From assembly GCA_014879575.1 (NCBI GenBank), contig JACSRU010000058.1, positions 1-64,000 of the forward strand: a DNA stretch of 64,000 bases, given 5' to 3'. The stretch is from Chthoniobacterales bacterium. Lineage in GTDB: Bacteria > Verrucomicrobiota > Verrucomicrobiia > Chthoniobacterales > Terrimicrobiaceae. The notes below the pieces were generated by a model, which was given only the letters and a program-made list of their open reading frames with translations, was not told where the DNA came from and did not search any database. The translations under genes and the position numbers were made by a program. Of the stretch, positions 13,959 to 42,842 are shown piece by piece. The stretch's first letter is position 1. Each line of letters starts with the position of its first letter.

Positions 13959-14000
13959 GCCGACGTGGCGAAATGGCAGACGCAAGGGACTTAAAATCCC
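13959..14000 (+). pseudogene. 5' half of a tRNA-Leu(UAA) gene split by island insertion
   Basis: GCCGACG (acceptor 5' strand, 13959-13965), the D arm and the anticodon arm up to AAAATCCC are present, with anticodon TAA at 13992-13994. The sequence then leaves tRNA structure: no variable arm, T arm or acceptor 3' strand follows. The missing 3' half lies 28.8 kb away at 42783-42842, where CGTCGGC completes the acceptor stem with seven perfect pairs. Confidence 0.93.
13984..14000. repeat. attL: 17-bp direct repeat at the left island edge
   Basis: AAGGGACTTAAAATCCC is repeated exactly at 42783-42799. It covers the anticodon loop and most of its stem. The repeat ends where the left copy reads C and the right copy reads T, and the preceding bases also differ, so 17 bp is the full identity. 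Confidence 0.92.
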
Positions 14001-14078
14001 CACCCGTCTCCAAAGCGGTTCTTTTACAGTGTAGATGCAGGAGGGAAAGAGACGAAAATCCGTCATTTCTGGGGCTGA

Positions 14079-14096
14079 TTTGTCCAATTGGACAAA
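14079..14096. promoter_or_regulatory. 18-bp perfect palindrome between attL and the island tRNA
   Basis: TTTGTCCAATTGGACAAA is a perfect palindrome 48 bp upstream of the island tRNA-Leu and 79 bp from attL. It could be an operator for an element-encoded helix-turn-helix protein or a recombinase accessory site. Confidence 0.5.
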
Positions 14097-14143
14097 CGCT
14101 ATAGGCTGGCTTTTTGGCTTGAGTTCTGGGAGGGTTTCCTTTT

Positions 14144-14230
14144 CCGGGTGTGGCGAAATGGCAGACGCATTGGACTTAAAATCCAATGACCTTTTTGGTC
14201 GTGCGGGTTCGAGTCCCGCCACCCGGACCA
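14144..14230 (+). tRNA. tRNA-Leu (anticodon UAA), complete, carried by the island
   Basis: Acceptor CCGGGTG (14144-14150) pairs perfectly with CACCCGG (14220-14226), followed by encoded ACCA. The anticodon arm is TTGGA-CTTAAAA-TCCAA with anticodon TAA; a long variable arm with stem GACC/GGTC and a T arm GCGGG-TTCGAGT-CCCGC complete a class II tRNA. The acceptor stem differs from that of the split chromosomal gene, so this is not a local duplication. It reads the same codon (UUA, and UUG by wobble) that the split gene would have served. Confidence 0.96.
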
Positions 14231-14234
14231 CCCT

Positions 14235-14423
14235 TCAAAATCTCGCCCTCTGGCTGTAGAATTTGAGCTCTAGTTCCACCAACTCGGCCGATTTCTTTGC
14301 CCACGCGTCCCGCAAACGGCGATGATCGTGCTCCCGGAAAAACGTAGGCGGCTCGGACTGCAAGGCTCGGATTGCCGCCAGTTCGGCGACGACCCTTTCC
14401 CGCTGGGTGATCTTCCTGGCCAT
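14235..14423 (-). CDS. Small hypothetical protein (62 aa)
   Basis: The ATG at 14423 lies one base past the stop of the upstream DUF6573 gene. The product begins MARKITQRERVV and is a charged, helical 62-residue protein with an HDHRRLRDAWAKKSAELVELE segment. No family is recognised. The tight spacing to its upstream neighbour and the sensible composition support a real gene. It ends four bases short of the tRNA 3' end on the opposite strand. Confidence 0.6.
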   Translation of the reverse strand: MARKITQRERVVAELAAIRALQSEPPTFFREHDHRRLRDAWAKKSAELVELELKFYSQRARF

Positions 14424-14424
14424 T

Positions 14425-14844
14425 TCAAAAGTCCTCCGCGAATCCGATGGTAAGCACGGGCTCGGCGTCGTCGCCGGGGCCACAGTGGCAGACAAGCTGT
14501 GTGTATTGGCTGCGCTTGTCGGTGCGGTGCAGGATGAGTTCAAACACAAACTGGCTGACTCCTTCTTTGCATTTCCCTGCCTGCTGGCGTGCCATCCAAA
14601 TGACATCCCACAAACGGCCTTCCACGTCCTCGAAAGGATACCGGGCCGGGATGATTTCGATCACTTGCCACAGGGCGGCCGTGACAACGGTGTGATGTCG
14701 AAAACCTGCTTCTTTGGCGGTTGTGGTCACGTCGATCAAGAAGCCATCCGCGATGGCCTGCGCTCGCGTGTAGATGCTGATTGGCTCGCCGAGAATTTCG
14801 GTGAGATCGTTGCGGGTCTGGGGGTTCGATTCGTTCGAGTTCAT
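14425..14844 (-). CDS. DUF6573-like mobile-element protein
   Basis: The 139-residue product has a disordered Asn/Ser-rich start and then ISIYTRAQAIADGFLIDVTTTAKEAGFRHH-type sequence, matching a small family common on plasmids, phages and integrative elements. The family has no established function. The C-terminal part, with CHCGPGDDAEPVLTIGF, is compact and slightly acidic. It lies between the RadC-like gene and the 62-residue gene, a typical accessory neighbourhood. Confidence 0.7.
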   Translation of the reverse strand: MNSNESNPQTRNDLTEILGEPISIYTRAQAIADGFLIDVTTTAKEAGFRHHTVVTAALWQVIEIIPARYPFEDVEGRLWDVIWMARQQAGKCKEGVSQFVFELILHRTDKRSQYTQLVCHCGPGDDAEPVLTIGFAEDF

Positions 14845-14880
14845 GGAATTGATTTTGGTTTTTGATCGGTGGAACGGGCC

Positions 14881-15363
14881 TCAAACGAGACCCGCTTCGC
14901 GGAAAGAAAAGTGGGTGGACTCCCCGGCAATGACGTGGTCGAGGAAACGGATCTGGAGCAGGTCGGCACCGTCGCGCACGCGGCTAGTGACGCGCCTGTC
15001 GGCCTCGCTTGGCGCTGGGTCACCCGACGGGTGATTGTGCATCAGAACGATGCCGTAGGCGCTCGCCACAACCGCCGCCCGGAGGATTTCGCGGGGGTGG
15101 GCAACTGCTTCGTTCAGGCTTCCAACCGAAACAACGTGGTAACCAGTTGGACGCAATTTCGTATCCAACAGGATCGCGACAAGGTGCTCCTTGTCGGCTT
15201 CAAAAGCGGGTTCGGTCGCAACTACCGTCTGCCAGAATTCAAAGGCTTTAGCCGGTTCATCAAGAGGAGCCCGGCTGGCTCCGTAGTGGGCAAGCAACGG
15301 CTCGCCCACCCGAGTAAGAACGACACGAAGGGAAGTTTGCGACTTGGAAGAATTGTTTCTCAT
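14881..15363 (-). CDS. RadC-like JAB/MPN domain protein
   Basis: From the ATG at 15363 (MRNNSSKSQTSL) the product is 160 residues. It has a short N-terminal segment and then the RadC-type JAB domain: SVGSLNEAVAHPREILRAA, the metal site HNHPSGDPAPSEAD, and the closing LQIRFLDHVIAG. RadC-like proteins are frequent on mobile elements and sit near antirestriction genes; the molecular role is unsettled. The frame stays open upstream to 15804, but that part is Arg/Pro/Ser-rich and covers a structured GC-rich region, so I exclude it. Confidence 0.9.
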   Translation of the reverse strand: MRNNSSKSQTSLRVVLTRVGEPLLAHYGASRAPLDEPAKAFEFWQTVVATEPAFEADKEHLVAILLDTKLRPTGYHVVSVGSLNEAVAHPREILRAAVVASAYGIVLMHNHPSGDPAPSEADRRVTSRVRDGADLLQIRFLDHVIAGESTHFSFREAGLV

Positions 15364-15403
15364 AACAATTTTTTCCAAGAGCGAACTCCCCAGGTGTGAG
15401 CGG

Positions 15404-15835
15404 GCCGCCAAAGCCCGTTGAGTCACAGCCCAAGCGGAGCGCAGCACAAATTCTGAGAAGGGAGCGTAGGAGGGAACCCCGGGCGGCGGCCTAGCTCCCA
15501 GAATTTTGGAAAGGCTTGAGGCAGTAGCCGCGCCAGCGGGCGAGACGAAACCGAAGGTGGAGCGAGAGGCCGGCGGCAACACGGAGCCCGCAGGCGGAGT
15601 CACTACCGGAGCCGAAGGCGACCAGCGCGGAGCGCATCGGATCTTCCTGGCGATTCGGGCGAGGGACAACCGGAGACGAGGAACGAGCGTAGGGCGGCTC
15701 TCGATTGAATGGCCGCTGGCGCCCGGCGGGAACCCGCAGGGCGAGAGTCTATCAACCGACCTTGGATTGATTGTCTCTCGCCGCCGGCCGCCGTCCAAAA
15801 ACAAGGCGGCCTCCTAGGAGGCGGAGCCGCGTCGA
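15404..15835. other. GC-rich non-coding segment dense in strong hairpins
   Basis: The stretch 15364-15999 has no convincing gene. Within it lie successive inverted repeats: AAATTCT...GGGAGC with GCTCCCAGAATTT (15448-15465 and 15494-15507), GCCCGGCGGG/CCCGCAGGGC (15721-15742), GGCGAGAG/CTCTCGCC (15740-15747 and 15775-15782), GGCCGCC/GGCGGCC (15786-15792 and 15805-15811) and the perfect palindrome GCCTCCTAGGAGGC (15809-15822). This may be a structured RNA or a DNA-level recognition region. I match it to no known RNA family. Confidence 0.5.
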
Positions 15836-17375: not shown

Positions 17376-19412
17376 TTAAGCTGAGGTCTGGTTTTCGGGA
17401 TTAACAACGGTTGTCACCAATTCTTCTGTGGGGTCTTTCCCGCTATCTGTCTCTTCTGCGAGATCGCTTTCTGTGGGAATAAACTTGGCATGAGTCGCTT
17501 CCAAATAGGTCCTCGAACTTTCCCTGCTGGCTTCGTAACTAAGCGATTCATTTATGAATTGAAGCCGTGCGCGGGCATTCCCGATGACCTCGTTCCACTC
17601 GAATGCCCAAACCTGAATATTCAAGTCGCCGTCATCGAATACCAGTCCTTTACGCCGTTCCCGTTGATTTGCCTTCCGCTTGGCGTGGTCATCCATCTCG
17701 TTCGAAACAACGATGAATTTCCATCGTGTTTTCTCCTTCTGAAATCTACTGTCCTGGGCGACAGCAAGGGCATAACTTTCAGCTTGGGAAAGGATTTTTG
17801 AGTTAATTCGCTGTTTAGGGCGCTTCAACTCCACAACGAGGTGATCCCGCTCATCGTGTCTCGGCTGCACACTTCGACTCAACATGAGGTCAATTCTGCC
17901 TGCTTGTTCGTCTTCTCGAAGAACTGGGTCAGTAATTTCCTCACGCAATTTGTCCAGGTGAATAGCAAGAACCTCTTCAAGCGTTTTCTCACTTCCGGAG
18001 AGAGAAAATTCTTCGTCGAATATCCACGCTTCCGTTTCGAGAATTTTATGAAGCTGATCGCGTTCAAGAAGCTTCGCTTTAGTCTCCTTGTCATTAACCA
18101 GGTTTTCCAACGCAAGGAGAAAATCCAATCGATTAGCTACTGTTCTTGCGGAGCTGATGATATTCGAAAGCGATGTCGATTCAAGTAGCTGGGACAAGCT
18201 CTCCTGCTCCTCTTTCTTTAAGTTCAGCATCTCCGTGATGATCCGCTGAACCGATTCAGGATTCTCCTTCAAGGCCTGCGCAAGCAGGCGGAACATGAAT
18301 CGTTTGGATTTCGGGTCGGCCTCCTCAAACGAGGGCAAGTATGACTCAACGTTTACTGCCAGAATGTCGAAGACTTGCCGCTCTGCTTCCTCAACAACAT
18401 TTAGATGCTCTTTTTCTTCGAAGGGGTAAATTTGCTCGCGCTTCCAACGCTCCACAATCTGGCTTTGGCGCTCATGGAGTTTGCGGCGAAAGTGAGCTTT
18501 GACTGCCTGCTTTGCACTTCCAACAATGGCTGCTACATCGGCGTGCAACTCGTCCAGTGTAAGTAAACCCTGCTTATCAAGCTCTCGAAAGTGATCGCTC
18601 TTTACGTAGGCGGTGAATTCGAATCCTGGCGCTCGAATCTGTTGGCCGGCTTCCGTTTCGTGAAGAGAGACTCCATCCTTATCGCAAAGATGCACTACTC
18701 TTTTAGCAGGCATTAGCCATTCGACGACCGTAACGGAAGCCTCAACCTTCCGCCCGTCAGGAAGAAGGATCTCATCCAGAGGAATCTCCTTTTTGTCTTT
18801 TTGAAAAGAACCGGGATCAACCTTCACTCCATCATACTCTAAAGTGATAGATGGATATTGGCCCAAGTATGCCGCAAACAGCTTTGCAAACTCTTCTCGG
18901 GCGCTTTCATTGAGCAATGAACCGAGGCTCTTTTCGATACCCGAAATCACGACCTCCGTTCCGCATCCATTGCCGTTTGCCGGAGTCGGATCGGAAAATT
19001 GCAGGTTGGTCAAAGCATTGGAACGTCCGACAATCCTATAAGTAAACCGCGCACTATTGCTCTCATAGGTGGTGAGCCACTCTACCTGCGACCCCAGTGA
19101 AAATGCTTTGAAGCGTCCTTGCCCACTTTTGCCATGCAACGCGCGACCATTCATGCGAGCTTTTTTCTTCTTCCATGAGTCTCCGAGATTCCCAAAGAGA
19201 TGGCCCACCTCGGAATGGTCTATACCTACGCCTGTGTCTTTGACTCGGATTGTTTCGACACCATCAAGTTGATTGGTTTCAAGCCTGACAGAGACATTGT
19301 TTGCGCCAGCATCAAGGCCGTTCCAAATTAACTCCGCGACCGCCTTAATTGGCGAGGTATTGGCTAGGCTTTCGAGGAAGTCCTCCTTGGCTGCAATGGC
19401 GATTTTGTTCAT
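17376..19412 (-). CDS. GHKL (HSP90-type) ATPase with C-terminal PD-(D/E)XK-like nuclease domain
   Basis: The 678-residue protein opens with a Bergerat ATP-binding fold: AVAELIWNGLDAGA (metal Asn31), DTGVGID at 59-65 and GKSGQGRFKAFSLG at 94-107. This arrangement is typical of MORC-like and MutL/HSP90-like ATPases. A long middle region follows. The C-terminal part has GRIDLML around 505 and HLVVELKRPKQRI around 522-534, then SQAESYALAV, resembling Shedu/restriction-type endonuclease folds. A nucleotide-driven clamp coupled to a nuclease is inferred. Base composition is visibly less GC-rich than its neighbours, suggesting separate acquisition. Confidence 0.75.
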   Translation of the reverse strand: MNKIAIAAKEDFLESLANTSPIKAVAELIWNGLDAGANNVSVRLETNQLDGVETIRVKDTGVGIDHSEVGHLFGNLGDSWKKKKARMNGRALHGKSGQGRFKAFSLGSQVEWLTTYESNSARFTYRIVGRSNALTNLQFSDPTPANGNGCGTEVVISGIEKSLGSLLNESAREEFAKLFAAYLGQYPSITLEYDGVKVDPGSFQKDKKEIPLDEILLPDGRKVEASVTVVEWLMPAKRVVHLCDKDGVSLHETEAGQQIRAPGFEFTAYVKSDHFRELDKQGLLTLDELHADVAAIVGSAKQAVKAHFRRKLHERQSQIVERWKREQIYPFEEKEHLNVVEEAERQVFDILAVNVESYLPSFEEADPKSKRFMFRLLAQALKENPESVQRIITEMLNLKKEEQESLSQLLESTSLSNIISSARTVANRLDFLLALENLVNDKETKAKLLERDQLHKILETEAWIFDEEFSLSGSEKTLEEVLAIHLDKLREEITDPVLREDEQAGRIDLMLSRSVQPRHDERDHLVVELKRPKQRINSKILSQAESYALAVAQDSRFQKEKTRWKFIVVSNEMDDHAKRKANQRERRKGLVFDDGDLNIQVWAFEWNEVIGNARARLQFINESLSYEASRESSRTYLEATHAKFIPTESDLAEETDSGKDPTEELVTTVVNPENQTSA

Positions 19413-19430: not shown

Positions 19431-22247
19431 TTACTCCCAATCTTTTGTTTTGAAGCCGAGCGCCGTTGCGTTTTCGGAGACGGCACGCTTCGTCTGATCC
19501 GAAGCGCCTTCCGGGAAGTCGGCCGAAATTTCCAAAGTCACTTTCACGTTAGCATTGGGATCGTTGCCGAGAACGGAGATGATTTCCTCCGCGATCTGAA
19601 CGAGGCGCACCTTGGCGGTCGCCGGGGTAATATCGGCCGAACCATAGAACGCCTTGGCCTTCGCCGTTGTGGGCGTCGCCGGCGGAACCGGCGTGGACGT
19701 TCCAGTTGTCGGCGGTGTTTCCTGAACTGGAGGAGCTGTCGGCGATGGAATTGTGCCGCCACTCGGCGGTGCAGGGGCCTGCTTGGCTGCGTAGTCCCTC
19801 GCTGCCTGAGGTTCGATTAGCAGAAGCGTATCATCGAACTGGATGTTAGCGTCGCCGAGTTTGAACCCGTCGAATGTGTCCCCGGACTGGCCGTAAGCCG
19901 TCCCGAAGAAATCTTTCGTGTCGGCTCCCTTGACGATGGCCTGAGCCAATACGCCATTGTCCCGAAGGCGCGGAAGGTAGAGGTAACGAAGAGTGTCCTC
20001 CCAGAAATCGAAAGCGCGGATCGCCGTTTTATCGGCCTTCCAATACAGCTCCTTCAACTTCGTGCGAAGGTGGATGGGTGACCATGCCGGAATAACGAGT
20101 TCGTTTTCGGACGTGACGCGCTCAACCTCTTTTCCGAGTGACGATCCGCTCGTGTTCAACGCGAAAGCCTCCACGGAAATTTTCGTCTCGGTCGCATTGT
20201 ATTGAACGGGGCAGAGCAACCATTTGTAGCAGTCCCTCGCCACGCGGGCCAAAACGTCGGTGGCCGTTTCAAATTCCTTCTCGGCCTGCTTTTGCTGCAA
20301 GAGGTCGATGTTCAGTCGAGTCAATTTGATGTCTTCGACGATGCTTCCCCATGCGAGGGCTGTGCGGATGCTGTCGTTCAGGCGCGACAAGCCTCCGTGG
20401 TCGGCGGCGAGGAAGACGAGGCGGTTGCCGCGATACCGGGGTTTGCCGCCGTTGTTGCGAACGTAATCCAGCACCGCGTCGAAAGCCATACGCGTCTCTT
20501 CCTTCGCATAGGCATTGTTGGGAGGAAGCACAACCAGCCGCAATTCGCTGTCGTCCGGAACGTCGGAGTGCGGGGTGAAGATGTGCGTGCCGTCGAAGGT
20601 GGCTATTCCGCTAGCCAGCTTTTTCAAGACATCGGCGATTTTCCCGCGAACCTCGTTCTTTTCCTCGAAGCGCCGCTTGCGATCCTCCATCTCGCGCCGG
20701 AGGTTGGCACGGGTGTCGAACCAGAAACGGGTGTTGTCCTGCGCCTTGTCGCCGGAATTGTTCAGGTAATGAAGCCGGTCGGCGATCCGGTTGAGCGCGT
20801 CTGTGTAAACGGAAGCCGTCTGGCCCGGCTGAAGGCAGCCGAGCAGGATGCGGGCGCGGTCCAGCCCGCGCACGCCCGGCTTTGTTGCAACGGAGGACGG
20901 CGCGGTGCCGAGGAACAGCGTGCGAGCGGCGCGGCGGGCGGCCTGGATGGCTCCGAAACGCGGCTCCTTCGATTCAAGTTCCGTCGTTTCCGCCCGGTCA
21001 CCGTCGATGTCCTTTTCCAAAACTGGGTCCCAGCCGGCGGGCAGATAGTAGGTCAGTTCGTTTCGCGTGTTGCCGTCGTAAAGCGGCAGGCTGCCCGGCA
21101 GGATGAGCAAATCCTTGTTGTCGTCCTTCCAAAGCCGATAGATGACCTTCGCCATCAATTTCAGAACGCCACGGGTGCGCTGAAAACCATCGATGGTCGT
21201 CCAGTCCTCATAGAGCCGGTCGAAGACTTCGGGATGGATCGGGTAGGCTCGCAGCAGCCTCTCGAAATACTGCACCTCCTGCGTCTCGGATGGCAGGCGG
21301 GTTCCCTCCCCGATGTAGGCGTCGGCAAATGCCCGGCTGACGGTTTCCCGCATTTTGGGATCGCGCAGTTCCGGCTCAAAGAGCCTGCGCCGCACGATTT
21401 CAAAGGCTTCCTCCGTGGCCACGGGTTTCCAGAGGGCTTGCACCCGCCCGAAAGTCTTTTCCAACGCCTTGAGCGTGGCGACGCCGCGCTGGCTGCCGAC
21501 CTCGATTTCCGATTCCGGGAGCGATGCGAGGATAACCGCGTTGGGAACCAGCTTGGCCGCCTCCGTCAACGCCTGCACGAAGGACAGATTGCTGTCGTAG
21601 GTCCCCCCGCAAATTTGGCTGCTCTCGGGGAACTGGCGGATGTAGGCGACCAGTTCATCCACGAGGACCACGCAAGGTGCGTGCTGCTCTAAAAGTGTGA
21701 CGAGAGCGGATTTCCCCGGAGAGGTCCCGCTCGCATCTGCCTCTCCCACGAGAGAAAAAGCGCTCTCGCCGCCCAACTGCCACGCCAGTTCTCCCCAGAG
21801 CGTGTTGACGGTGCTGCCACCCATCTTGCGAGGAATATCGGGAGCGAGGTCTGTGCCGTCGAGCACCGCGATGCGGGCCTGCGGAACGTCCATCAGCCCA
21901 GCTTTGTCGAGAAGATCGGGCACCCCCGGCAGGTCTTGAATCGAGCACTTCCGCGAGGCGAGATGATAGACCGCGAGCAACGTGTGCGTTTTGCCGCCGC
22001 CGAAGGCCGTTTGAAGCTGAATGACCGGCTCGCCCCCTTTGCCGTTGAGACGCTGCGCGACCTGCGTAAGCAACAGGCGCATGCCCTCGGTGATGAACGT
22101 GCGCTGAAAAAATGCCTGGGCATCGCCGTATTCCTTTCCGGCCTTGCCTTTGCGCACGGCGGTAATGTCGGCGGCGAACTCCGACTGCTGGAATGTGCCT
22201 TCCAATACGTCGGGATGCGGGATGGCGATTTCTCTCCAAGGTTTCAT
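19431..22247 (-). CDS. DUF499-family AAA+ ATPase (anti-phage associated)
   Basis: The start is fixed at 22247 ([19 protein letters not shown]) by the ATGA overlap with the methylase stop, giving 938 residues. Walker A is [10 protein letters not shown] with GGGKT at 83-87, and Walker B is [14 protein letters not shown] at 193-206. The remainder has the family order ending in a Pro/Thr-rich linker near 825-865 and a short C-terminal domain. DUF499 (COG1483) proteins recur beside DUF1156 methylases in predicted defence islands and are thought to be ATP-driven partners. A biochemical role is not established. Confidence 0.88.
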
Positions 22248-25135
22248 AGGGTTTCTCCGAAGAGGTCTTTGTCCTCCGTGATCTGGCCAGCGGCGGCTTC
22301 GATAGCTGTCCAGCCGGTGATGAGTTCGTTGTAGGCACGGGCGTCCTCGGCGCGGTTGGAACGCTCGCACAGCGTGTAAAGGCGGTAGGCGAGTTGGCGG
22401 GTGGCCTCGGCCTTGTGGCGGATCGTGGAGAGGAGGTGGGCGGCGGCAACGTCGCCGCCGTTTTTGTGAGCACGGATGAGGTGATGAAGGCTTTCCCATA
22501 CCGGAAGGCGTGGGTCGGCAGCAGGGTTCCAATCCTCGGGATACTCGGACCATTTGAGCAGGCGCACCTTGCCGCCTCCGCTTTCCAGCACGCCGGAGTG
22601 CTTCACCCCATCCACGCTCGTGCCCTTGGCGCGGGCCAGCACATCGGCCTCGCCGAAAGGACCGGAGTTCCAGCTGTATTGATCAAACCAATGCAGACAG
22701 AATTGCGTATCGTGATCGAAATCGTCCTCGGCGAGGAAGCGGTTGATGAGTTGCAGTGCGGTGCGAACGGTCATCGGCGTGCCGTCCGCCTCCAGCACGG
22801 CGGTGTATTTGGAGAAGACGGCCATGCCGGGGCCGATGATGGCCTGGGACAAATCTACCGGCGCGACCGGCGACCGATCTTCGCCTGCACCCTTGGTCAT
22901 TTCGTCGAGGGCTTCGGGGAGGACGGTATTGAGTTCGCGAATGAACTCACGGCGCGAAATGCTCGGCGCGTCGGTAGGGCGCTTACGGCAGACAAGAATA
23001 ACGCTGGAGGCAAGGGCGTTTGCATCCGCCCCAATCATTCTATTACCCATTTCGGTGCGCATGGGCCACGTGCCCGAGAGCTGGAGATCTGATCTGTGGA
23101 CGGCCTCAAGGAACGTCTCCCAGCCGGTCGAGCTAGTTCCCGATTCCGATTCTGTATCCGATTGTTTAAATGCGTAATAAATCGTGATCGGATACGAGGC
23201 GTGCCCCTGAGTGGCCAAGCTCCGCATTGCCTTGGTCATTCCAACCAGGAAAAACTGTTCAGCCTTCTCTTTGGAGCCATGCCGGTATGGCGTTGCAACT
23301 AACTCTTCAGCCTTTGGCGTTGCGACTGTTGAAAGGACGGATGAGAAGACATCCCGCAACCCCCGCCGCAACCAAATGTAAAAGAAATCCGACAGATCAG
23401 CATAGCCAATATTATCGTAGTATGGCGGGTCTGTCGAAATTACCTTCGCCGTAGAGAAAGATTGAGTTTGCGCATCGGCTTGCGCCACCACCCCTGGATG
23501 GCCGTTCCCAAGACGATCAAGAACTCGCATCATGTTTTGGAGAGAAACGAGGTAGTCGCCCGCCATTCCGCCCAACGCGTTTGCCTCAGAAAAATCCCAA
23601 ACCATCGGGAGTGCCTGTCGGCCAAATGTGGCGATGGATTGGTCCATTGTGGTTTTCCACCGACAGAGAGATGTTTGAGCATCCGACATTTTGCTTACGG
23701 CCAATGCGAGATACACGCTGACAGCTTCGGCGTAGGCTTGGGAGCCAGTGCCGCCGGATTCGAGGGGGCGGGAATCGTCGGGCAGACCGGAGGCTTCCGC
23801 ATCTTGGCGGATGCGCTCCCGCGCCTCGCCCACCAGATCGCTGAAGGTCGTCAGCGCTACCAACTGCCGGGAGGTGAAAAGGTCGCCGTAGGTCGTGAGG
23901 CCATAGTTGGGAGTCTTGAAGTCGCGTGGATTGTTGGGAAGAAGCATCTCTGGCTTCCATGTCGGTTCCGCCCGTGCTGCGGCAGCTTCCATTTCGACAG
24001 TCGACGCAAGATAAACTCGACCGCGAACGCCTTCAGCAACAATTGCCATGAGCTTTTGCTCCATTCGGCCAGCCTTTCCTTGCTCGCGAATGTAATCGTA
24101 GTCGATGGGCGTATCGGACATCAGGCAGCGAAAAGCCTTTCGCTTCCCGGCAGTCGTGCCGCCCAAGGCCTCCGGCGGCGGCGTGCCAATCTTGACGTTG
24201 AAGCGGTAGCTGTCTCCCTCGACAATGGGCTGCACGTAGGCCTCTTTGCCTGCCTTGCTCGACAGAATGAAAGTCGAGGCGAGCGGCACATCCACATGGG
24301 AAAAGGCGGGGTTTGGGCTTTTTACGGTGCGTGCCCAGAGCCACGCGATGACGGTGAGCTTCTGGCCGACGAAGGGTTTGAGGTCGGACCGTTCGCGGGC
24401 CATCTCAGCGGTGATTTCCACCTTGGGATACAAATGTCCGATGCGTTTCTCCGCCTCGGCACGTATCCACGCGCCGTAGTGCCGCACGTCCTCAGCGAGT
24501 CCCGTGGCCCCTTTCCACGATGCCGAGCGTTCGCCCCGCTTGACCGCCGCGGGATTCACCGGCGGTTTTCCGGCGAAGCGCGGCGGAATCTCGATCATGG
24601 CCTTATTGATAAGCACGGGCACGGGATTGAGGTCGGAGGCATACGCCTCCAGCCCGAGCCTCTGTGCTTCCAGCGGGATGGCCCCGCCCCCGGCGAAGGG
24701 ATCGTGCAAGGCGGGAAGCTTGTCGGGGTTGAACAACTCGGCGGCCTGCGGGTGATCCCTATTGAGTTCGCAGACCTCGCGCCACGAGCGGCGTATCTCG
24801 ACGCGAGCGCGTTCCAGCACGGCCTCGTTGGTGGTGTTTTCCCACTGCACGAGGTCTTCGATGATCTTGAATAGTTCCTTCCGCTTCTTCGCGGCTTCGT
24901 GCTTGTTCACGCCATACTTGAACCCCTGCCCCTGCTGGTAACCGGGATCATTGACAAGTTGAGCAAAGATGACCGCCCGCGCCGCCGCCAACGGTCGCCG
25001 TGCCCACCAAAGATGCAGCGTGGATGGATGCCCATGCCGGATGGATTTCTCCCGCGCTGCGGCAGCATTGATCGCATCAAGCGGCAACGCGACCTCGATG
25101 AGCTTGCGGGGGGATTTGATGGGGTGGGCGGACAT
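22244..25135 (-). CDS. DUF1156 adenine-specific DNA methyltransferase
   Basis: This 963-residue enzyme starts with the DUF1156 signature ([20 protein letters not shown], then [20 protein letters not shown]). The AdoMet-binding motif [13 protein letters not shown] is at 145-157 and the catalytic motif [20 protein letters not shown] is near residue 568, as in N6-adenine or N4-cytosine methylases of COG1743. In defence loci such enzymes mark self DNA. It overlaps both flanking genes, by one base upstream and four downstream, so expression is tied to the TOPRIM and DUF499 genes. Confidence 0.92.
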
Positions 25136-25830
25136 CAGGCGGCGGGTGGTGCAGGAGCAGGTGCAGGCGGGACCGCGACAGGGTTCAAAGAGCCAGGGTA
25201 GAATCGTTCGATTTCATGAATTAGAAATTCCGCGAAGCTCCGAATACCTTGAAGGTTATGAGGATTGGTAGCGGGCTGGTGCCCGAGATTCGCCTTCACG
25301 TTGCGCAAAGATTCCCAGGAGACAAAGTCAGCAGGGAGACTGCCCTTACCGTAACCGGGGAAGATGCGCTTGATCTCTGGGAGATAGCCTTCGGAATGAA
25401 GCGGCGTGATAAAATGACGAAGGCCGCCGGGACCACCGAATTTAAGCCACTCTGCCAAGGGGGCACCATCGAAATGCAGGGCGAAGAAATCCTCGAAATT
25501 GTGAAAAGAGAACAGAAAGTCGGGGATGCCGGCTGTCTTTGCGGCATAGTTGTCGGCGCAATGGTAATCGTTGCGATGGTAGAGGTCGAAGTCCGCCCAG
25601 ACCTGAATGGAAGGGATTTTCCGATTGTCAGTGCGGGTTCGGTTGTAGGCACTCTTGATTTTCCCGAAGGAGCCAGTCTTGGCAACGGCATGCATCGGGC
25701 CGATAAAGCGCAGGGGCGCTTCAAAGGTGTCGGGAGGCAATGGCTGAGAGTCCAGAAAACTTTGCAGGCGCTGTAAATAGGCGTGCTCCGATTCTCCTTC
25801 GCAGACAATAATGTGGCGAGTGCAAGGCAT
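25135..25830 (-). CDS. TOPRIM-like nuclease (RloB/DUF4276/AbiLii type)
   Basis: The 231-residue protein starts [19 protein letters not shown], with the TOPRIM catalytic Glu11, and has [11 protein letters not shown] with Asp80 and Asp82, the DxD metal site. [14 protein letters not shown] corresponds to the conserved motif of RloB-type proteins. The C-terminus is a Pro/Ala tail. Such TOPRIM proteins pair with OLD/RloA-like ATPases in abortive infection systems, and the AAA ATPase is directly upstream. It overlaps the methylase start by one base (TGATG). Confidence 0.78.
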
Positions 25831-25832
25831 GG

Positions 25833-27119: not shown

Positions 27120-27199
27120 GATTTTGTGATGGATTTCTACTCATTCAAGGCGAAATCCGGGATATGGCAACAAGAATAAACAGATTTTTTGTTTATTTT

Positions 27200-30806: not shown

Positions 30807-31619
30807 CTACGTGCGCTCTTCCGGAGAGAGGTAAGGCAGGTTACAGAGGTCAAAAACATGCCGTTCCGACTCGGCGCGAATCGTTTTTCCGTTTGGCAGG
30901 GTGAAGCCAACACCGTAAGGATTCCATTTCCAGTCCTTCGCCTTTGCGGCTGAGGCGATCCGGATGTTGCTGGCCGTGCCTCCAGTGCGATTTACCAGCA
31001 TGTTATACCAGCGGCTTTCGTCGGTAAAAAACAGGTCCACCTTCATGCCGGTTTCTCGATGGACCATGAGCTTGTTTTCCGCGGCGTTTCCAGCGATGCG
31101 GCCATCCTCAGCCAGCCGGGGCGCAAGTATGCCGTCGTCGAGCATGGCTTCGATCACTGCGTCGGTTTCCGGAACGAAGATTCGGCAACGAGGAATGATG
31201 AGTAGTTCCACATCGCCAACGAGCGGCTTTTTCCGGCGAACGGAACCAGCGATCTCAATGCGCTCGGTGGCGGGGCCAAGCCGTTCGATCAAGTCGGCGG
31301 CGACGATGCGGGCGGAGGCGCGAGGCCATTTTTGTTTCACCGCGAATATTCCACGATATTTTTTCGGCACGCGCTTCGGCGGCGGAGGCACGACAAGGAT
31401 TTCCTCGAATGCCGCTTCCGGCCTGGTGGGCGAGAGCCACACTCGGCGGCAGCCCACGCCGCGCTTTTGCGCGAATGCGCGGGCTTCTGCTTCCCCCTCC
31501 TCGTCGTCCTCGAATTTCCGCACCCCTGCGAGGATACTGGTTTTAAGCGGAGCGAGAGCGAGGAAGGCGAGAGCGTCGGCGGTGTAGCGGTGTTTGGCGT
31601 CGGAGGTCGGTGTTTTCAT
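30807..31619 (-). CDS. DNA polymerase X/beta-like nucleotidyltransferase
   Basis: The 270-residue protein has the Pol-beta superfamily active site: IEIAGSVRRKKPLVGDVELL with Gly-Ser at 125-126 and Asp136/Glu138, then KVDLFF near 195 with the third carboxylate. The stretch WYNMLVNRTGGTASNIRIAS is typical of the family-X palm and thumb. It lacks the PHP and long N-terminal domains of cellular PolX. Comparable small proteins occur in phages and plasmids. It could serve repair, replication or nucleotide signalling; position ahead of the helicase does not decide. Confidence 0.72.
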   Translation of the reverse strand: MKTPTSDAKHRYTADALAFLALAPLKTSILAGVRKFEDDEEGEAEARAFAQKRGVGCRRVWLSPTRPEAAFEEILVVPPPPKRVPKKYRGIFAVKQKWPRASARIVAADLIERLGPATERIEIAGSVRRKKPLVGDVELLIIPRCRIFVPETDAVIEAMLDDGILAPRLAEDGRIAGNAAENKLMVHRETGMKVDLFFTDESRWYNMLVNRTGGTASNIRIASAAKAKDWKWNPYGVGFTLPNGKTIRAESERHVFDLCNLPYLSPEERT

Positions 31620-32508: not shown

Positions 32509-33711
32509 TTAAACTTTGTCCCGGCCCGGCTTTTTCGATGCCGCCTCCGGCCTGTAGTCCCCCGGCTCGAACGTGGCGGCGGGCTGCTCCGCTTTTTCGG
32601 TGAGGTAATGGCGGTGTGAATTCCCCTCTTTGATGACGCGGATTTCTCCTGCCTCATGGAGTTTATTGATCGCCCAATCAACGCCGTCTGAGGAACCGAG
32701 CTTGCGAAGCTCGCGTTTGACTTCGCCTGGATATTTCTGCAAATGGTCGACGATCCGGCCCATGAGAACGGTCGGCTTTTCGCCTCCGTCCTCTGCGGAC
32801 TGGCGAGCGTCCTTGCCTTCAGGGCGGAGGTCTGTCCACGTCAGACGCGTTTGCCCGACGCCGACAGGATCAAACCAGAGACGGGCGATGCGCTCGCCCT
32901 CAGCAGCACCAAGGCCGCTATGCCGGTCTTTGACAACTTCGATCTCGATGCCTCCCGCCTTGCCGGGATGGATGCGTCCGTCTTTGTCTTCGATGGTCGC
33001 GGAATACTTGCCGTCTTTGCCCCTCATGGCGCGAATCGCAAAGGCCGAGCCGTCGGTAAGGTCAAGTTTGCTCGTCGCACCTTTGGCGTGGCGGGCGTCC
33101 ACGTCGCGACCAAAGTGGTCGGCGATAATCACGGCGCACCCCGCCGCCGTCGCGGGTTGAAGGAGTCCTTGAATTAAGGAGTAAGCGTCGTCGTTGTCGT
33201 TGATTTTTAGACCGAGCTTGCGGAGGACGGAGGCCACACCGTCAATGATGATGGTCGGCTTGTCCTCCTGAACTGCCGCCTGTTGGACGACAAATTTTAG
33301 GTCCTCTGCGTCGGGCTTTTGCGAATAGACCAGCATCTCCGCAAACGAACGGGGATAGCCAAAAGACTTCGCGCGGCGGAGCATCCGCTGGCAAACATCC
33401 TCGGGATCAACCCACAAAAAGCGGCGTCCGGCTGCTGCTTCCGAACGGGCAATTTCCAGGAGAATGTTGGATTTTCCGATGCCGGTTGGCCCGGCAATCG
33501 GATTGATCGCGCCGGGATAGATGAGCGGGAGGCCAGGCAACACCTCCCCAAGTTCCGGCAGGGTAACGGTTCCGGTATCGCCGTCCCAGATGGCGAGTTG
33601 GTCAACGACGGATCCACCGAAAGCGCCGTTCCAGCCGGGGACGGCTTTTTTCTTCTTTTCTTCGGTCTCGGCTGCGGTGGTGTTTTCGGCGCGGTCGGGC
33701 GCGGTGTCCAT
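32509..33711 (-). CDS. RepA-like RecA-fold ATPase (AAA_25), plasmid replication type
   Basis: The 400-residue product has Walker A GPTGIGKSN at 74-82, Walker B PTIIIDGVAS near 153, and a KGATSKLDLTDGSAFAIR segment as in RepA/RSF1010-type replicative helicases and related mobile-element ATPases. The C-terminal 80 residues look like a winged helix (ELRKLGSSDGVDWAINKLHEAGEI). It probably drives replication or maintenance of the excised island. The iteron-like field lies about 2 kb upstream on the same strand. Confidence 0.8.
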   Translation of the reverse strand: MDTAPDRAENTTAAETEEKKKKAVPGWNGAFGGSVVDQLAIWDGDTGTVTLPELGEVLPGLPLIYPGAINPIAGPTGIGKSNILLEIARSEAAAGRRFLWVDPEDVCQRMLRRAKSFGYPRSFAEMLVYSQKPDAEDLKFVVQQAAVQEDKPTIIIDGVASVLRKLGLKINDNDDAYSLIQGLLQPATAAGCAVIIADHFGRDVDARHAKGATSKLDLTDGSAFAIRAMRGKDGKYSATIEDKDGRIHPGKAGGIEIEVVKDRHSGLGAAEGERIARLWFDPVGVGQTRLTWTDLRPEGKDARQSAEDGGEKPTVLMGRIVDHLQKYPGEVKRELRKLGSSDGVDWAINKLHEAGEIRVIKEGNSHRHYLTEKAEQPAATFEPGDYRPEAASKKPGRDKV

Positions 33712-36580: not shown

Positions 36581-37744
36581 ATGATTCGAGAACTTTCCCG
36601 CGAAGCTGCCGAGCACGATAACGCATCCGCAAAACCCAAACGCGGCAAGGAATCTCGCCACCAGCGGGACAAGCGCGAAAAAAAGGAACGCGTGGCGACA
36701 GAATACCGGGCGACGGTCGCGCTCGCCCGCGAAGCCGGCTCCCGAATCGTCGATGGCATCTTCGACGAGAAGGGCGAGGAACATTCCTTTTGCTTCCGGT
36801 TCTATGGTGGCCGGATTTGCCGCGAAAAGGACGCGGCCAAATATACCCGCGCCGCAATCAAGATGTCGGCGGAACGCGCCGTTTACCAGCGCACGAAGGA
36901 GGTCACCGACAAGGACGGCAAAACCATCCTGCGCCCGAACGGGCATGGCCGTTACGCTCATGGCGCGGTTTCGATGATTTCCAGCGTCGCCCCGTGGCAG
37001 GTGGCGACAATCAAACGACTGCCTCAAGACGAGCGGGATTTGCTATTGCTCCAGCTTGCGGAAGTTGAGGCAAAGACGATCAAGGATGTTTCCGGGCGCG
37101 AAGTCTTCGGCGGCTCCGCTCACTACGATACCGCCGTCCCTCACCGGCATATCCACGTCCCGAAAACGGACAAGGACGGCAACATTTACCCGAAAGCTGA
37201 TTTCCTGACGGCGGGCGGGGCAACAGTCGGGTGGGACAGAATCATCCGCCAGTTCGGAGAGGACTCCGGCCTCGTCAGCGAGCAGAATCTTGAACGCTAC
37301 CGTTCCAATCTCGCCAAGAAATACGACAATGGCCGTAAGCTAATTGATGTGGAATGCGCTCGCGCCTGCGACGATTTTTTCGTGAACGTCTGGCTCCAAA
37401 AAAACCCCGAATACCGAAAATCATTCCAGAAAGATTGCCTGGGGTATTCCCGCCGGAAGATAGCAGCACTCAAAGCAGAGAAACACCGGCCTTTGATGTC
37501 TGCGGCCGTAGATGAGTTCGTCACCGTTGGCATTTGGCCGCTCGCCTATCAAGCCATGAATTTTGCCATGTGGCGGCTCATTCCCCGCGATATTCGCCCC
37601 GTCGTGGTCATCGCGATCCGCACAACCCAAGCTGTCCGGCGTCCACTGCGTCTCGTTAAGCAGGCAGTCCGCGTCGTTGATATGCTGGCTGTCCTAGAAC
37701 GGACGAAGGAGATGCCGCCGATTGAGCGCATTTCTATGCGTTAA
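36581..37744 (+). CDS. MOBV-type relaxase (Mob/Pre family)
   Basis: The 387-residue protein carries the HUH signature HYDTAVPHRHIHVPKTDKDG followed by NIYPKADFL, which matches motif III of Mob/Pre relaxases (H-x-D-x-x-x-P-H-x-H). The N-terminus is highly basic (KPKRGKESRHQRDKREKKER). A Lys/Arg-rich C-terminal region has LIPRDIRPVVVIAIRTTQAVRRPLRL. Such enzymes nick oriT and lead single-stranded transfer using helper conjugation machinery. It is transcribed rightward from the hairpin array, where an oriT is expected. Confidence 0.78.
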   Translation: MIRELSREAAEHDNASAKPKRGKESRHQRDKREKKERVATEYRATVALAREAGSRIVDGIFDEKGEEHSFCFRFYGGRICREKDAAKYTRAAIKMSAERAVYQRTKEVTDKDGKTILRPNGHGRYAHGAVSMISSVAPWQVATIKRLPQDERDLLLLQLAEVEAKTIKDVSGREVFGGSAHYDTAVPHRHIHVPKTDKDGNIYPKADFLTAGGATVGWDRIIRQFGEDSGLVSEQNLERYRSNLAKKYDNGRKLIDVECARACDDFFVNVWLQKNPEYRKSFQKDCLGYSRRKIAALKAEKHRPLMSAAVDEFVTVGIWPLAYQAMNFAMWRLIPRDIRPVVVIAIRTTQAVRRPLRLVKQAVRVVDMLAVLERTKEMPPIERISMR

Positions 37745-38266: not shown

Positions 38267-38439
38267 TGAATTTCGGTGCTCGCTGCATGGCATCGCCGGG
38301 ACTGGGCGTTTCTGGGAATTTTCGCCCACTCCCGAAATTTTGGAACGCGATGAGCGTTCCGGGTGGGGGGCGGGATTCTTCGATTGTCCGCTTCCACATC
38401 ACCCAGCCGGAACGGTCGGGTTTCGGTTCGGTGGCAATG

Positions 38440-38470
38440 GAGCCGGGCGGGTTCGGTTCCCGCCCGGCTC
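38440..38470. repeat. 12-bp stem hairpin, copy 2 of a pair shared with 33975-34005
   Basis: GAGCCGGGCGGG and CCCGCCCGGCTC form a perfect 12-bp stem with 7-nt loop TTCGGTT, 18 bases upstream of the ATG at 38489. Arms and loop closely match the hairpin at 33975-34005. The gene-free gap 38267-38488 holds nothing else I can identify. Confidence 0.7.
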
Positions 38471-38488
38471 TCACTGATTTCTAACTTT

Positions 38489-39091
38489 ATGCTGACGCTC
38501 GAATCTAAACCTTCGCTCCGTGTTCTGCGGGCGCTTCGTGGGCAGCAAGTCCGTTGGGGTTCGCTCGGAGAGCGGGATCGCGAATACTGCGCGGCGTGGG
38601 ACTCCCTGCCGGAAGATGCCCGCTTGCAGCTTGCCGCCCAGGGCGTGACGGGGCCGTTGCTGCCGGAGTGTTCGCGCGAGGAAACGCCCGCCGCTCCCTT
38701 GCCTTCCTCCAACGACGCTCCGCTTGCCGTCGAGTATGACGCGGCAGAATCGGTCTTGCGAGTGCTGCAAATCCTTACCAGCTCTCACCATCCCTCCTTG
38801 CGGTTGGCTGCTGATTGTCTCCTACTCATCATCAACCGTTCCGACGAAAAGAACGAGGCGGCGGTTGCAAAGAAGCACGGCATCACCCGCGCGGCGGTCA
38901 GCAAACGAATCCGTGAGATGCGGAAGGGCCGATTCCTCGACGGTTTCGAGATTCACTATTTCGGCGGTCGCCGGGCGGACAGCGAACGCGCCCGTGTCCG
39001 TGCTCTTCGTGTCCACAAACAACGAAAACAACAATGCAAACATCAACCCCAAGCGAAACAAGCGGCCTTGTCCCTGCTGTCGGAATTGTGA
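38489..39091 (+). CDS. Helix-turn-helix protein (200 aa)
   Basis: The ATG at 38489 (MLTLESKPSLRVLRAL) gives 200 residues; sequence further upstream in frame translates a hairpin and is excluded. The centre has EAAVAKKHGITRAAVSKRIREMRKG, a good helix-turn-helix with the A-V-A-x-x-x-G-I-T-x-x-A-V-S pattern, and the C-terminus is basic and Gln-rich. It probably binds DNA on the island, as regulator or initiator. It overlaps the next gene by 58 bases in another frame. Confidence 0.65.
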   Translation: MLTLESKPSLRVLRALRGQQVRWGSLGERDREYCAAWDSLPEDARLQLAAQGVTGPLLPECSREETPAAPLPSSNDAPLAVEYDAAESVLRVLQILTSSHHPSLRLAADCLLLIINRSDEKNEAAVAKKHGITRAAVSKRIREMRKGRFLDGFEIHYFGGRRADSERARVRALRVHKQRKQQCKHQPQAKQAALSLLSEL

Positions 39092-39651
39092 CCGTGAACG
39101 TGGAGGAAATCCGCGGAAGCTACGACCGCACCGTCACGGCACTTAAAACTGTGGCTCTAGCCTCGCACGAGTTTTTCGTTTCATGCGTTGAAACGGGTCA
39201 GCTCCTGGCCGCCAAACGCGAAGAATACCGCGACAAATCGGGCTGGCTCGAATGGCTCCGCCGGGAAGTCCCGGAAATCAGCCAACCCACGGCATCCCGC
39301 CTCATGGCGATAGCCGCGAGCTATTTCAGCGGAAACACCTCGCCCGCGCTTCCAGATCGGCTCTCGTCCATCCGCGCCCTACACGATGCCTTAAAGGCGA
39401 CGGCGGAGGAGGATAAAGACGCTTCGCCGAAGACAGTCCGGACGGCGGCAGTAAAAACGACGAAGACAGATGGGATATTTTTTCGGCTGTTCCGAATGAT
39501 CTCCAGGCCCGCCTTGGCGACTCCCGAACAGCAGGCATTTATCACGAATACAGCGGAGGCGGTTCGGCTTTGTGAAGAACGCGGATGGAAACTGCCAACA
39601 ATCGACGTGATGACCAAAGTCATGCCAATGGACAGCCGATCACTTGAGTAA
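39034..39651 (+). CDS. DUF3102-like protein (205 aa)
   Basis: The 205-residue product contains HEFFVSCVETGQLLAAKREE and SGWLEWLRREVPEISQPTASR, the pattern of DUF3102-like proteins on mobile elements, which often sit near replication or partition genes. The C-terminal half is less structured. The start at 39034 overlaps the previous gene by 58 bases; a later internal start is possible but would lose conserved sequence only after residue 30. Confidence 0.55.
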   Translation: MQTSTPSETSGLVPAVGIVTVNVEEIRGSYDRTVTALKTVALASHEFFVSCVETGQLLAAKREEYRDKSGWLEWLRREVPEISQPTASRLMAIAASYFSGNTSPALPDRLSSIRALHDALKATAEEDKDASPKTVRTAAVKTTKTDGIFFRLFRMISRPALATPEQQAFITNTAEAVRLCEERGWKLPTIDVMTKVMPMDSRSLE

Positions 39652-39665
39652 CGTGCGTCGAAAAT

Positions 39666-40456: not shown

Positions 40457-40550
40457 AGCGATTCCGCATATCGAGAAACCTTGTCCGCTTCAAGCAAAAA
40501 CCTCTCCTAGGCGAGGATGCAGGAAAGGGAACCGTGGCAGGCTGTTGTCG

Positions 40551-40802: not shown

Positions 40803-40946
40803 CGGGCCGGCGGTCCAGATGATCGACGCTGTGGCGTCATCATTAAGCTTTCTCTGTTGCTCGCTCTAGCTGCGCTCTCTGCGACCCCGTTGGGTTCCGC
40901 CGTTAAGACAGTCGCCGACCGTGTCGCACGCGGGCGACATCCACAT

Positions 40947-40962
40947 TGCTCACGCGTGAGCA
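40947..40962. promoter_or_regulatory. 16-bp perfect palindrome between regulator and integrase operon
   Basis: TGCTCACGCGTGAGCA is perfectly palindromic. It sits in the 290-bp gene-poor gap 40803-41092, downstream of both the Xre-type gene and the small membrane protein gene. I see no convincing gene in this gap. Confidence 0.45.
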
Positions 40963-41092
40963 GTCGCAAATACGATACGATTGCGTTCTTCCGCCGGCGG
41001 GAGATCGAGCGTTGCCCAATCTGCTTGTCGCATGTCGCTGGGAGCGCGGCGGAAATCACCTTCGCAACTGGCGCGAAGGAGTCTACGTTCCG

Positions 41093-41266
41093 CTAGGCTT
41101 GCAGGAAAACCGCAAGGAGCCGGAGGGCAACCGGAGCGGCGAACAAAACCCCGATAGACAACGGAACTATGAGGAGGATTCCGAGAAACCCGAAACGTCG
41201 CTCAACGCTGCGAAGCAATGCGAATATGAAGTAAGTGAAGAAGATTCGGAAGAAGTAACGAGTCAT
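41093..41266 (-). CDS. Small membrane protein (57 aa) after the integrase
   Basis: The ATG at 41266 lies five bases past the integrase stop on the same strand, with GAGG about ten bases ahead. The 57-residue product starts MTRYFFRIFFTYFIFALL and has two hydrophobic stretches, about 4-18 and 28-56, separated by RSVERR. No family is recognised. The position and composition suggest a real co-transcribed gene; the opposite strand also has an open frame, but it is charged and repetitive. Confidence 0.5.
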   Translation of the reverse strand: MTRYFFRIFFTYFIFALLRSVERRFGFLGILLIVPLSIGVLFAAPVALRLLAVFLQA

Positions 41267-41271
41267 AGTTT

Positions 41272-42699
41272 TTAACCCTCAAAGTCGGGTTCGGGGGTGG
41301 GTTCGTCTGGTAAATCTGGAAGGTTTTCTTGCGTCTCAGGAGTTTGGGCGAGTGCCTCAACAACGGACGGGAAGAGCCGCCAGAACTGCGAGCAATCTCC
41401 CGGCCTCACCGCATTGAGGTAATTGGCTTTGATCACGGCCTCGCTATTTCCGACTTCGGTGGCCGTGAGTGCGGCGTCCTTGTAGAGCTGGTAATGGTAA
41501 GAGCTGAAACAGTGGCGCAAGGAGTTCTGCGGCCATTTTTTGAAGCCGGCGGCGGTCGCGATTTCGCGTAGAGCAATTTGCCAAGCGGCCTCGCGGCCTT
41601 CCTTACCCTTCCGGTTCGGGAGGTAATCGAAAACCAAATCGCCGGGCTCTTTATCGCCGACGATAAATTCGAGCCAAGCCGTGAGAACGGGTTCGACGGT
41701 TGAAGCTCGGGTCCGTCCGGTTTTTACGTGAGCCGCTTTGAGGAAAACCGATCCATCCAAAATGGCGCCCCATCGGACGGACTCCATCTCGTTATTCCGC
41801 ATGCCCGAGAAGAGCTTCAAGCAAAGCCCACCCAAGGCCTCGGGCCGCTGGTTCTGCGCTGCCCAAAGGAGCCTCGCAACTTCCAACGGCGAAAGGATGT
41901 ATTTCTCTTCCTTGTTCCGGTCGGTCGCCAGTTTCTTTTTTCGGCGGACAAGTCCGAGCGGGTTGGCGTCTCGGGGGAGCCAGAATTGGTCGATGGCAAA
42001 ATTGAAGAGGATTCGTGAATAGCGTTTCCGCTTCTCACGTAGAGCCAAGCTCGCCGGAGGGCCAACCTTCGGTTCCACCTTGGGAGCGACCTGGGGTACC
42101 CGAGGGGGTTGGCCTTTCTTTGGCCGGTCTGCCTTCACGTTCGGGTCTTTGGGAGGCTTTGGGGCCTTCTCCCGGTGCATGCCTGCGGGTTTCTTGAGCA
42201 TCTCGGAAACGTCCTCGGGCGTGATTTCCGAAACCTTCTTGTCGAGGAAGCCTCCCCAAAAATGGAGGAGCTTGGCTTTGCAATCTCGGATATGCCGGTC
42301 GGTGAGTCCTTCCAATTTCTGCTCGTCGTGGAGGGCGGTAATCGCCTCCCGCATAGTTTTCGTGGTCTTCACGCGTTCGAGGTGTTGCACCCATGCTTGC
42401 GCGGCTGCGAGTAGGCTTGGCCGTCCATCCAAAACGGCAAGGGCGGCACTTACTTCCCGGAGGGTTTCCTCGGAAAGATTCCAGACTTCCGAAACAGCCT
42501 TGGCCTTCTTCTCCTTCCCGAGGTTCTCTTGCTCCTCGAAAACCCAAGCCTCGGCCTCGGCGTAGGTCGGGAAGGCTTTCTTCTTCGACCCCTCGCCAAG
42601 AAAAACGTGCGAGAGTCGGGCACGAAAAAAGGGTGTTCCCTTCGCGCTCGTCTCCTCGCTTATTCCCGCCCCAGGTGGGAGGTTTTTCTTACGTGCCAT
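41272..42699 (-). CDS. Tyrosine recombinase (island integrase)
   Basis: The 475-residue protein has an N-terminal arm-binding-like region, a core-binding domain (about 100-260, with a Pro/Lys-rich insert near 175-215), and the catalytic domain. SGMRNNEMESVRW supplies Arg I, HVKTGR the Lys, NSLRHCF the Arg II box, EVGNSEAVIKANYLNAV the Tyr near 426. Both conserved His positions are Asn (NSLRH for HxLRH, GN for GH), a variant I recall in verrucomicrobial integrases. It ends 84 bases before the attR repeat and should cut within the tRNA anticodon arm. Confidence 0.92.
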   Translation of the reverse strand: MARKKNLPPGAGISEETSAKGTPFFRARLSHVFLGEGSKKKAFPTYAEAEAWVFEEQENLGKEKKAKAVSEVWNLSEETLREVSAALAVLDGRPSLLAAAQAWVQHLERVKTTKTMREAITALHDEQKLEGLTDRHIRDCKAKLLHFWGGFLDKKVSEITPEDVSEMLKKPAGMHREKAPKPPKDPNVKADRPKKGQPPRVPQVAPKVEPKVGPPASLALREKRKRYSRILFNFAIDQFWLPRDANPLGLVRRKKKLATDRNKEEKYILSPLEVARLLWAAQNQRPEALGGLCLKLFSGMRNNEMESVRWGAILDGSVFLKAAHVKTGRTRASTVEPVLTAWLEFIVGDKEPGDLVFDYLPNRKGKEGREAAWQIALREIATAAGFKKWPQNSLRHCFSSYHYQLYKDAALTATEVGNSEAVIKANYLNAVRPGDCSQFWRLFPSVVEALAQTPETQENLPDLPDEPTPEPDFEG

Positions 42700-42782
42700 G
42701 CGAGATCAATAACCAGAAAAGAAGAGCGAGAAAAGCACGATTTCCAATTTCTGTCCAAACTTATCTGAAACCTCTGTAATCG

Positions 42783-42799
42783 AAGGGACTTAAAATCCC
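42783..42799. repeat. attR: 17-bp direct repeat at the right island edge
   Basis: AAGGGACTTAAAATCCC is identical to 13984-14000. The distance between the copies is 28,799 bp. The next base continues the tRNA variable arm, unlike the left copy. Confidence 0.92.
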
Positions 42800-42842
42800 T
42801 TATCCCGAAAGGGGTGTGCGGGTTCGAGTCCCGCCGTCGGCA
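42783..42842 (+). pseudogene. 3' half of the split tRNA-Leu(UAA) gene
   Basis: After the shared repeat come the variable arm (CCC-GAAA-GGG stem), T arm GCGGG-TTCGAGT-CCCGC and acceptor strand CGTCGGC with discriminator A at 42842; no CCA is encoded. Joining 13959-14000 to 42800-42842 restores an 85-nt class II tRNA with a fully paired acceptor stem. Confidence 0.93.

Follow-up and report, generated by a model that had tools for sequence, protein, structure and literature searches.

A tRNA-Leu(UAA) gene parted by an apparent defence island that carries a complete tRNA-Leu(UAA) of different sequence

Restoration of the target tRNA is the rule for tRNA-targeting genomic islands according to Islander (PMC4383910). 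In actinobacteriophages, tRNA-dependent lysogeny has been shown by genetics (Guerrero-Bustamante & Hatfull 2024, PMC10865867), with Fionnbharth (tRNA-Lys) and Gaia (tRNA-Leu-CAA, 8-bp core) as examples, and the authors of that paper cite a Lactobacillus prophage. In Sinorhizobium meliloti AK21 and RU11/001, phage-related elements put tRNA-Leu(UAG) out of action and bring a substitute for it (PMC11476347), and another Sinorhizobium prophage group is reported not to inactivate and substitute a tRNA (PMC12429752). We analysed a 64,000-nt stretch of a Chthoniobacterales bacterium in the phylum Verrucomicrobiota (assembly GCA_014879575.1, contig JACSRU010000058.1, positions 1 to 64,000; hereafter, the window). 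It holds a 28.8-kb island that lies between the two halves of a tRNA-Leu(UAA) gene and carries a complete, different tRNA-Leu(UAA). We concluded that integration of the island very probably destroyed the native gene and that the island's copy replaces its function, which is the best explanation of the data as a whole. The ends of the island are laid out as follows.

13959..14000, plus strand: attL; 5' half of the native tRNA-Leu(UAA), whose last 17 bp are the core
13984..14000, plus strand: crossover core (17 bp), left copy, within the anticodon arm
14080..14095, no strand: palindrome TTGTCCAATTGGACAA between the core and the replacement tRNA, a possible integrase arm-type site (weak, not above controls)
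14144..14230, plus strand: complete replacement tRNA-Leu(UAA) with encoded CCA (ARAGORN; Rfam RF00005, 62.3 bits)
41272..42699, minus strand: tyrosine integrase, reading away from attR
42741..42757, plus strand: arm-like site TTTCCAATTTCTGTCCA inside the right end (15/17; maximum of 11 in 29 controls)
42783..42799, plus strand: right copy of the 17-bp core
42783..42842, plus strand: 3' half of the native tRNA-Leu(UAA) (attR)

The two copies of the core are identical over exactly 17 bp (AAGGGACTTAAAATCCC), and this sequence has no third occurrence on either strand of the window. Positions 13959–14000 joined to 42800–42842 gave an 85-nt tRNA that ARAGORN called as a complete tRNA-Leu(UAA). The joined tRNA was 97.6% identical (83/85) to the intact gene of a genome of the same genus (G001), and the two differences lie at positions 5 and 80, which pair with each other in the acceptor stem, so that one change compensates the other. 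Searches of the whole window with ARAGORN and Rfam found no full tRNA at either junction; the sole tRNA in the window was the one at 14144–14230, which is separated from the left core by 143 bp. An earlier, sequence-only reading of this DNA had placed the two halves and their shared sequence at these coordinates, which proved exact, had held that neither junction regenerates a tRNA, which the searches bore out, and had set the complete tRNA of the same anticodon 144 bp inside the left edge, which was right to within one base. It had also proposed the tRNA search of the joined halves, with the outcome just given.

These features place the island close to several described systems. It shares with Islander subsite A (anticodon loop) a tyrosine integrase, a crossover in the anticodon arm and tRNA fragments at the ends; unlike Islander islands as described there, its target is restored at neither junction (PMC4383910). 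Like the actinophages of tRNA-dependent lysogeny, it combines a tyrosine integrase, of predicted activity here, with an attB inside a host tRNA gene that is not rebuilt, its 17-bp core stands beside a range of 8–17 bp, and the complete tRNA that it bears agrees with the disrupted one in isotype but not in sequence (PMC10865867). The Sinorhizobium elements likewise disrupt the central part of a tRNA-Leu and carry a tRNA of the same isotype, but are phage-derived, belong to Alphaproteobacteria and concern another anticodon (PMC11476347).

The island's tRNA was the only tRNA-Leu(UAA) that we found in its own genome, an assembly of 3.6 Mb in 178 contigs (97.7% complete) in which the window lies on contig C68 (67.6 kb). 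All 56 RF00005 matches in the genome were examined, and the leucine anticodons called by ARAGORN were CAG (two genes), GAG, UAG, CAA and the island's UAA. Five RF00005 matches without an ARAGORN call were assigned by eye: Thr, Thr, Gly and Met at contig ends, and one at C67:3592–3664 with a Thr-like anticodon. Nor did the joined tRNA, used as a direct query, match any intact copy in the assembly, which is incomplete and in which some generally expected tRNAs were likewise not seen. Within that assembly, the host has no further gene of its own for the disrupted tRNA. The sequence-only reading had suggested the search for a second copy and had proposed that a complete, differently sequenced tRNA seems to make good the damage; the lack of a second tRNA-Leu(UAA) and the occurrence of a second such island in another genus both support it.

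This second case, in Spartobacteria bacterium LR76 (G009), has tRNA-Leu(UAA) halves 49.7 kb apart with a 17-bp core, and the joined halves again give a tRNA-Leu(UAA). Its integrase adjoins the 3' half and is 36% identical to that of the window, and a different complete tRNA-Leu(UAA) lies 192 bp inside the left edge; the genome has one further tRNA-Leu match, with anticodon UAG. Identity is 72% between the two islands' replacement tRNAs, and 71% and 75% between these and the genes that they replace. Among 24 open reading frames (ORFs) of the window island, the integrase alone matched the G009 island, whose cargo near the left end includes type I restriction and methylation subunits. The left tRNA half of G009 is 112 bp away from the end of its contig, which measures 1.56 Mb and whose record is not titled a metagenome-assembled genome. 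Layout, rather than cargo, is thus conserved between the two islands, which share one design with different substitutes and no shared cargo detected. In both, the replacement tRNA stands at the attL end, which is a difference from the actinophage system (PMC10865867).

The origin of the window's replacement tRNA was sought in 213 genomes, and no close relative was found; the best match was 85% identical over part of the sequence, and the best end-to-end identity among those compared was 81.2%. Of the 17 positions of the attB core, 3 are different in this replacement, as are 4 of 20 aligned positions in the G009 replacement relative to its own core, in each case only in the stem. These stem differences may shield the replacement from the integrase, which is a guess because the anticodon loop is identical in core and replacement. 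By eye, a motif of the GGCTGGC/CGCTGGC type precedes tRNA-Leu(UAA) by about 35–45 bases in the window (14100–14143) and in G003, G006, G009 and G034, and is perhaps a promoter of the lineage. Elsewhere in the window's genome, a 5.2-kb contig (C67:1–5235, L020) carries 12 tRNA genes called by ARAGORN (Met, Ile, Asn, Gln, Arg, His, Pro and Leu-CAG), a cluster reminiscent of tRNA arrays known from some phages or mobile elements.

Residues R301, K326, R395 and Y427 of the integrase, which we take to be catalytic, were invariant in 7 aligned sequences, the window's included. An arm motif was derived from the left end of the G009 island, where the site scores 17/17 by construction. Scores out of 17 at other ends were 15 (window right), 13 (G009 right), 14 and 12 (G041), 11 and 12 (G200) and 10 (window left). 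In G009, repeats of 11 and 10 bp (E values 0.011 and 0.042) occur at both ends, between the core and the replacement tRNA, and therefore place the replacement tRNA inside the element.

Relatives of the integrase were examined at 39 loci, some of them duplicates, and 25 rows including the window entered the tree; G051, a 227-aa fragment, was excluded and further loci were not entered. The family's sites lie in the anticodon arms of Leu, Tyr, Thr, Ser, Met and probably His tRNA genes (several isotypes were assigned by eye from 3' halves). Both ends were seen for eight elements, of which two, the window and G009 islands, have a split gene with a replacement, and six are canonical and rebuild the target with a 3' half of their own: G041 (Leu-UAA), G200 (Leu-CAA), G062 and L148 (Thr), L141 (Ser; each end has a complete tRNA according to ARAGORN) and G416 (Met). 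The remaining relatives ended at contig ends, had the other end out of reach or had no tRNA half near the integrase; the last was seen at twelve loci of one genus (L183–L187, L189–L194 and L196). The four Leu-targeting integrases form one clade (support 100/99), two replacing and two rebuilding, and G041 shares three more ORFs with the window island (34%, 61% over part, and 42% identity). Because both layouts occur in one clade with canonical members outside it, the tree suggests that rebuilding is ancestral and that replacement was derived once or twice; this is the most economical reading, of which the tree gives no proof. Two side observations concern these relatives. In contig C37 of genome G037, a 5' half of tRNA-Leu(CAA) (12514–12553, L079) is followed after 23 kb by a full tRNA-Leu(CAA) (35715–35798, L207) and is accompanied by a near-copy of the upstream region, so that a mirror-image element seems to supply promoter and 5' half. 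The record that holds the G200 element (RFPR01000001.1, L137) is titled 'Proteobacteria bacterium' but is placed in the window's order; the title looks wrong.

The prevalence of rebuilding among the nearest resolved relatives beyond the two cases raises the possibility that the island is a former canonical element whose own 3' half decayed, an unrelated tRNA gene in the cargo having by chance made good the loss; tRNA genes can occur as island cargo. Against this, the replacement tRNAs of the two cases differ in sequence but agree in isotype and position, the islands have no detected cargo in common, each core measures exactly 17 bp, and by eye no remnant of a 3' half stands beside attL. We consider such a decayed element very unlikely, and it differs from direct replacement mainly in the order of events.

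Direct replacement would proceed as follows. The 28.8-kb integrative island would enter by tyrosine-integrase recombination at the 17-bp core in the anticodon arm of tRNA-Leu(UAA). Its attP would lack the 3' half of the tRNA, so that integration would destroy the gene, as the two junctions show. The tRNA-Leu(UAA) present just inside attL would take over the lost function; it would be expressed and charged, the cell would depend on it, and precise excision would restore the native gene. Several observations weigh against this account. ORFs flanking the island in the window had no match in the 19.6 kb around the intact gene of G001, and a search at E ≤ 1e-15 for the gene on the right flank (resembling a threonine/serine exporter, by a match below the curated cut-off) found it in one of 25 genomes, the window's own, and in none of the 24 other relatives. 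The left arm-like site scores within the range of 29 native controls (9–11 of 17), two replacing and two rebuilding members of a clade do not fix the direction of change, and no promoter of the sigma-70 type, the one type sought, was found upstream of the replacement tRNA or of the native 5' half. Finally, the genome is known from a fragmented assembly of 178 contigs. Among the relatives that the sequence-only reading had asked about, intact genes do occur (e.g. G001), but no syntenic empty site was found; the same split without an island, which it had named as contrary to an insertion, was noted in none of 58 genomes. That an assembly artefact or a chromosomal rearrangement parted the halves is favoured by the fragmentation and the missing empty site, and opposed by the direct-repeat core, the adjacent integrase and the second case on its 1.56-Mb contig. 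We regard it as extremely improbable.

The gene content of the island bears on what kind of element performed the replacement. Its remaining annotated genes are:

14425..14844, minus strand: DUF6573 protein
14881..15804, minus strand: RadC-like JAB-domain protein
17376..19412, minus strand: HATPase_c_3 protein, possible defence gene (weak match to a restriction-enzyme model)
19431..22553, minus strand: HmaC, AAA+ ATPase (DUF499); the ORF overlaps HmaB and its true start may be further in
22244..25135, minus strand: HmaB, DNA adenine methylase (DUF1156)
25135..25830, minus strand: RloB/AbiLii-like protein
25833..27119, minus strand: AAA_21 ATPase, AbiLi-like
27200..30715, minus strand: HmaA helicase with NOV_C domain
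30807..31619, minus strand: protein with a DNA polymerase beta thumb match
32509..33711, minus strand: AAA_25 ATPase, presumably RepA-like
36581..37744, plus strand: backbone protein, 34% identical to the canonical G041 element, with a weak MobV relaxase-like motif
38363..39091, plus strand: backbone ORF, C-terminal part 61% identical to the G041 element
39034..39651, plus strand: DUF3102-like protein (below cut-off), 42% identical to the G041 element

The full HmaABC set spans 19431–30715, with the AbiL-like pair between HmaA and HmaB. All three genes of Hma, a candidate defence system (PADLOC HmaABC), are thus aboard, as cargo outside the integration mechanism. The protein at 36581–37744 has a motif of the HxH type that we take to resemble MobV relaxases. 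It had no relaxase match in Pfam, and its structure model was of low confidence (mean predicted local distance difference test score 50), with a match to MobM only at E 0.87–1.5 and probability 0.23–0.33. No phage structural family was detected in 20 island ORFs searched against PHROGs or in 24 searched against Pfam, and the integrase had no plasmid match. On these predictions, the carrier appears to be a non-viral defence island, possibly mobilizable.

The lack of detected phage structural families in the scanned ORFs also speaks against the island being a decayed prophage or phage satellite, and so an ordinary case of tRNA-dependent lysogeny or its remnant, as does the relaxase-like ORF shared with the canonical sister G041. 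A viral source would fit a mechanism known in phages, and distant relatives of the integrase occur in 3 Akkermansia phage records and 4 IMG/VR contigs. On balance we judged a viral source unlikely. The island works like tRNA-dependent lysogeny, with a short common core, no functional tRNA at the junctions and a complete tRNA of the same isotype aboard, and we did not class it as a member because no phage structural family was found in the scanned ORFs. Unlike the actinophages, the carrier is a defence island of Verrucomicrobiota in which no phage structural genes were detected, and it is known here from sequence alone. Among the literature matches listed, none concerned a non-phage island of this kind or any case in Verrucomicrobiota, with subscription journals mostly outside the scope of the search. 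The principle is already known; what appears to be new is the non-viral-looking defence island, the phylum, the two different substitutes and the canonical sisters in one integrase clade.

UUA was rare outside the island (6 of the 24 mechanically chosen ORFs use it, for 6 of 9,377 codons in all) and about 3.7 times as frequent inside it (17 of 7,237 codons, in 9 of 18 mechanically chosen ORFs), or 0.64 vs 2.35 per 1000 codons. Eight of 12 chosen island genes (11 with family matches plus 36581–37744) use UUA, in 16 of 6,501 codons. Since the island's genes are richer in UUA, they would benefit from its tRNA themselves. The six outside ORFs with UUA include two with a Pfam match (glycogen synthase and 1-deoxy-D-xylulose-5-phosphate synthase) and four without; the latter synthase belongs to the isoprenoid pathway and is commonly essential. 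A tRNA-Leu with anticodon CAA is unable to decode UUA, and a cell that lost the UAA tRNA would therefore be expected to die. Because UUA codons would depend on the island's tRNA, the island would be hard to lose except by precise excision.

We also asked whether a substitute can outlive its island. A distinct type of tRNA-Leu(UAA), with acceptor sequence CGGCKCG, occurred in 6 of 213 genomes of the order (G003, G006, G009, G012, G034 and G035) at 94–96% identity to the query consensus. It is patchy over three families and was the sole UAA copy found in five genomes: in G003, G006, G012, G034 and G035, no native copy or half was found at E ≤ 0.001, and weaker matches in G003, G006, G012 and G035 were tRNA-Leu(UAG). 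No integrase of the window's family was found in the stretches examined around the CGGCKCG-type genes of these five. Arm-like sites upstream of CGGCKCG-type genes scored 9–12 of 17, against 9–11 in 29 native controls, with only G003 (12) above them. One and the same 7.5-kb block precedes the gene in G006 and in G012, as expected of an inherited chromosomal gene. Permanent takeover by the CGGCKCG-type tRNA was not supported, given the lack of a nearby integrase, arm scores close to controls and the block shared by G006 and G012. The broader idea, that non-viral defence islands use an essential tRNA as an addiction device without a toxin, breaking the only UUA-reading tRNA of the host and carrying its substitute so that imprecise loss of the island would be lethal, and that the substitute sometimes outlives the island as sole copy (candidates G003, G006, G012, G034 and G035), we hold to be rather doubtful.

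The island extends a phage strategy described in 2024 to an apparent bacterial defence island. The canonical and replacing sisters bear on a question that the phage authors leave open, namely the relation of tRNA-dependent to canonical integration (PMC10865867). For the biology of such elements, the prediction is that an island of this kind would stabilise itself without a toxin.

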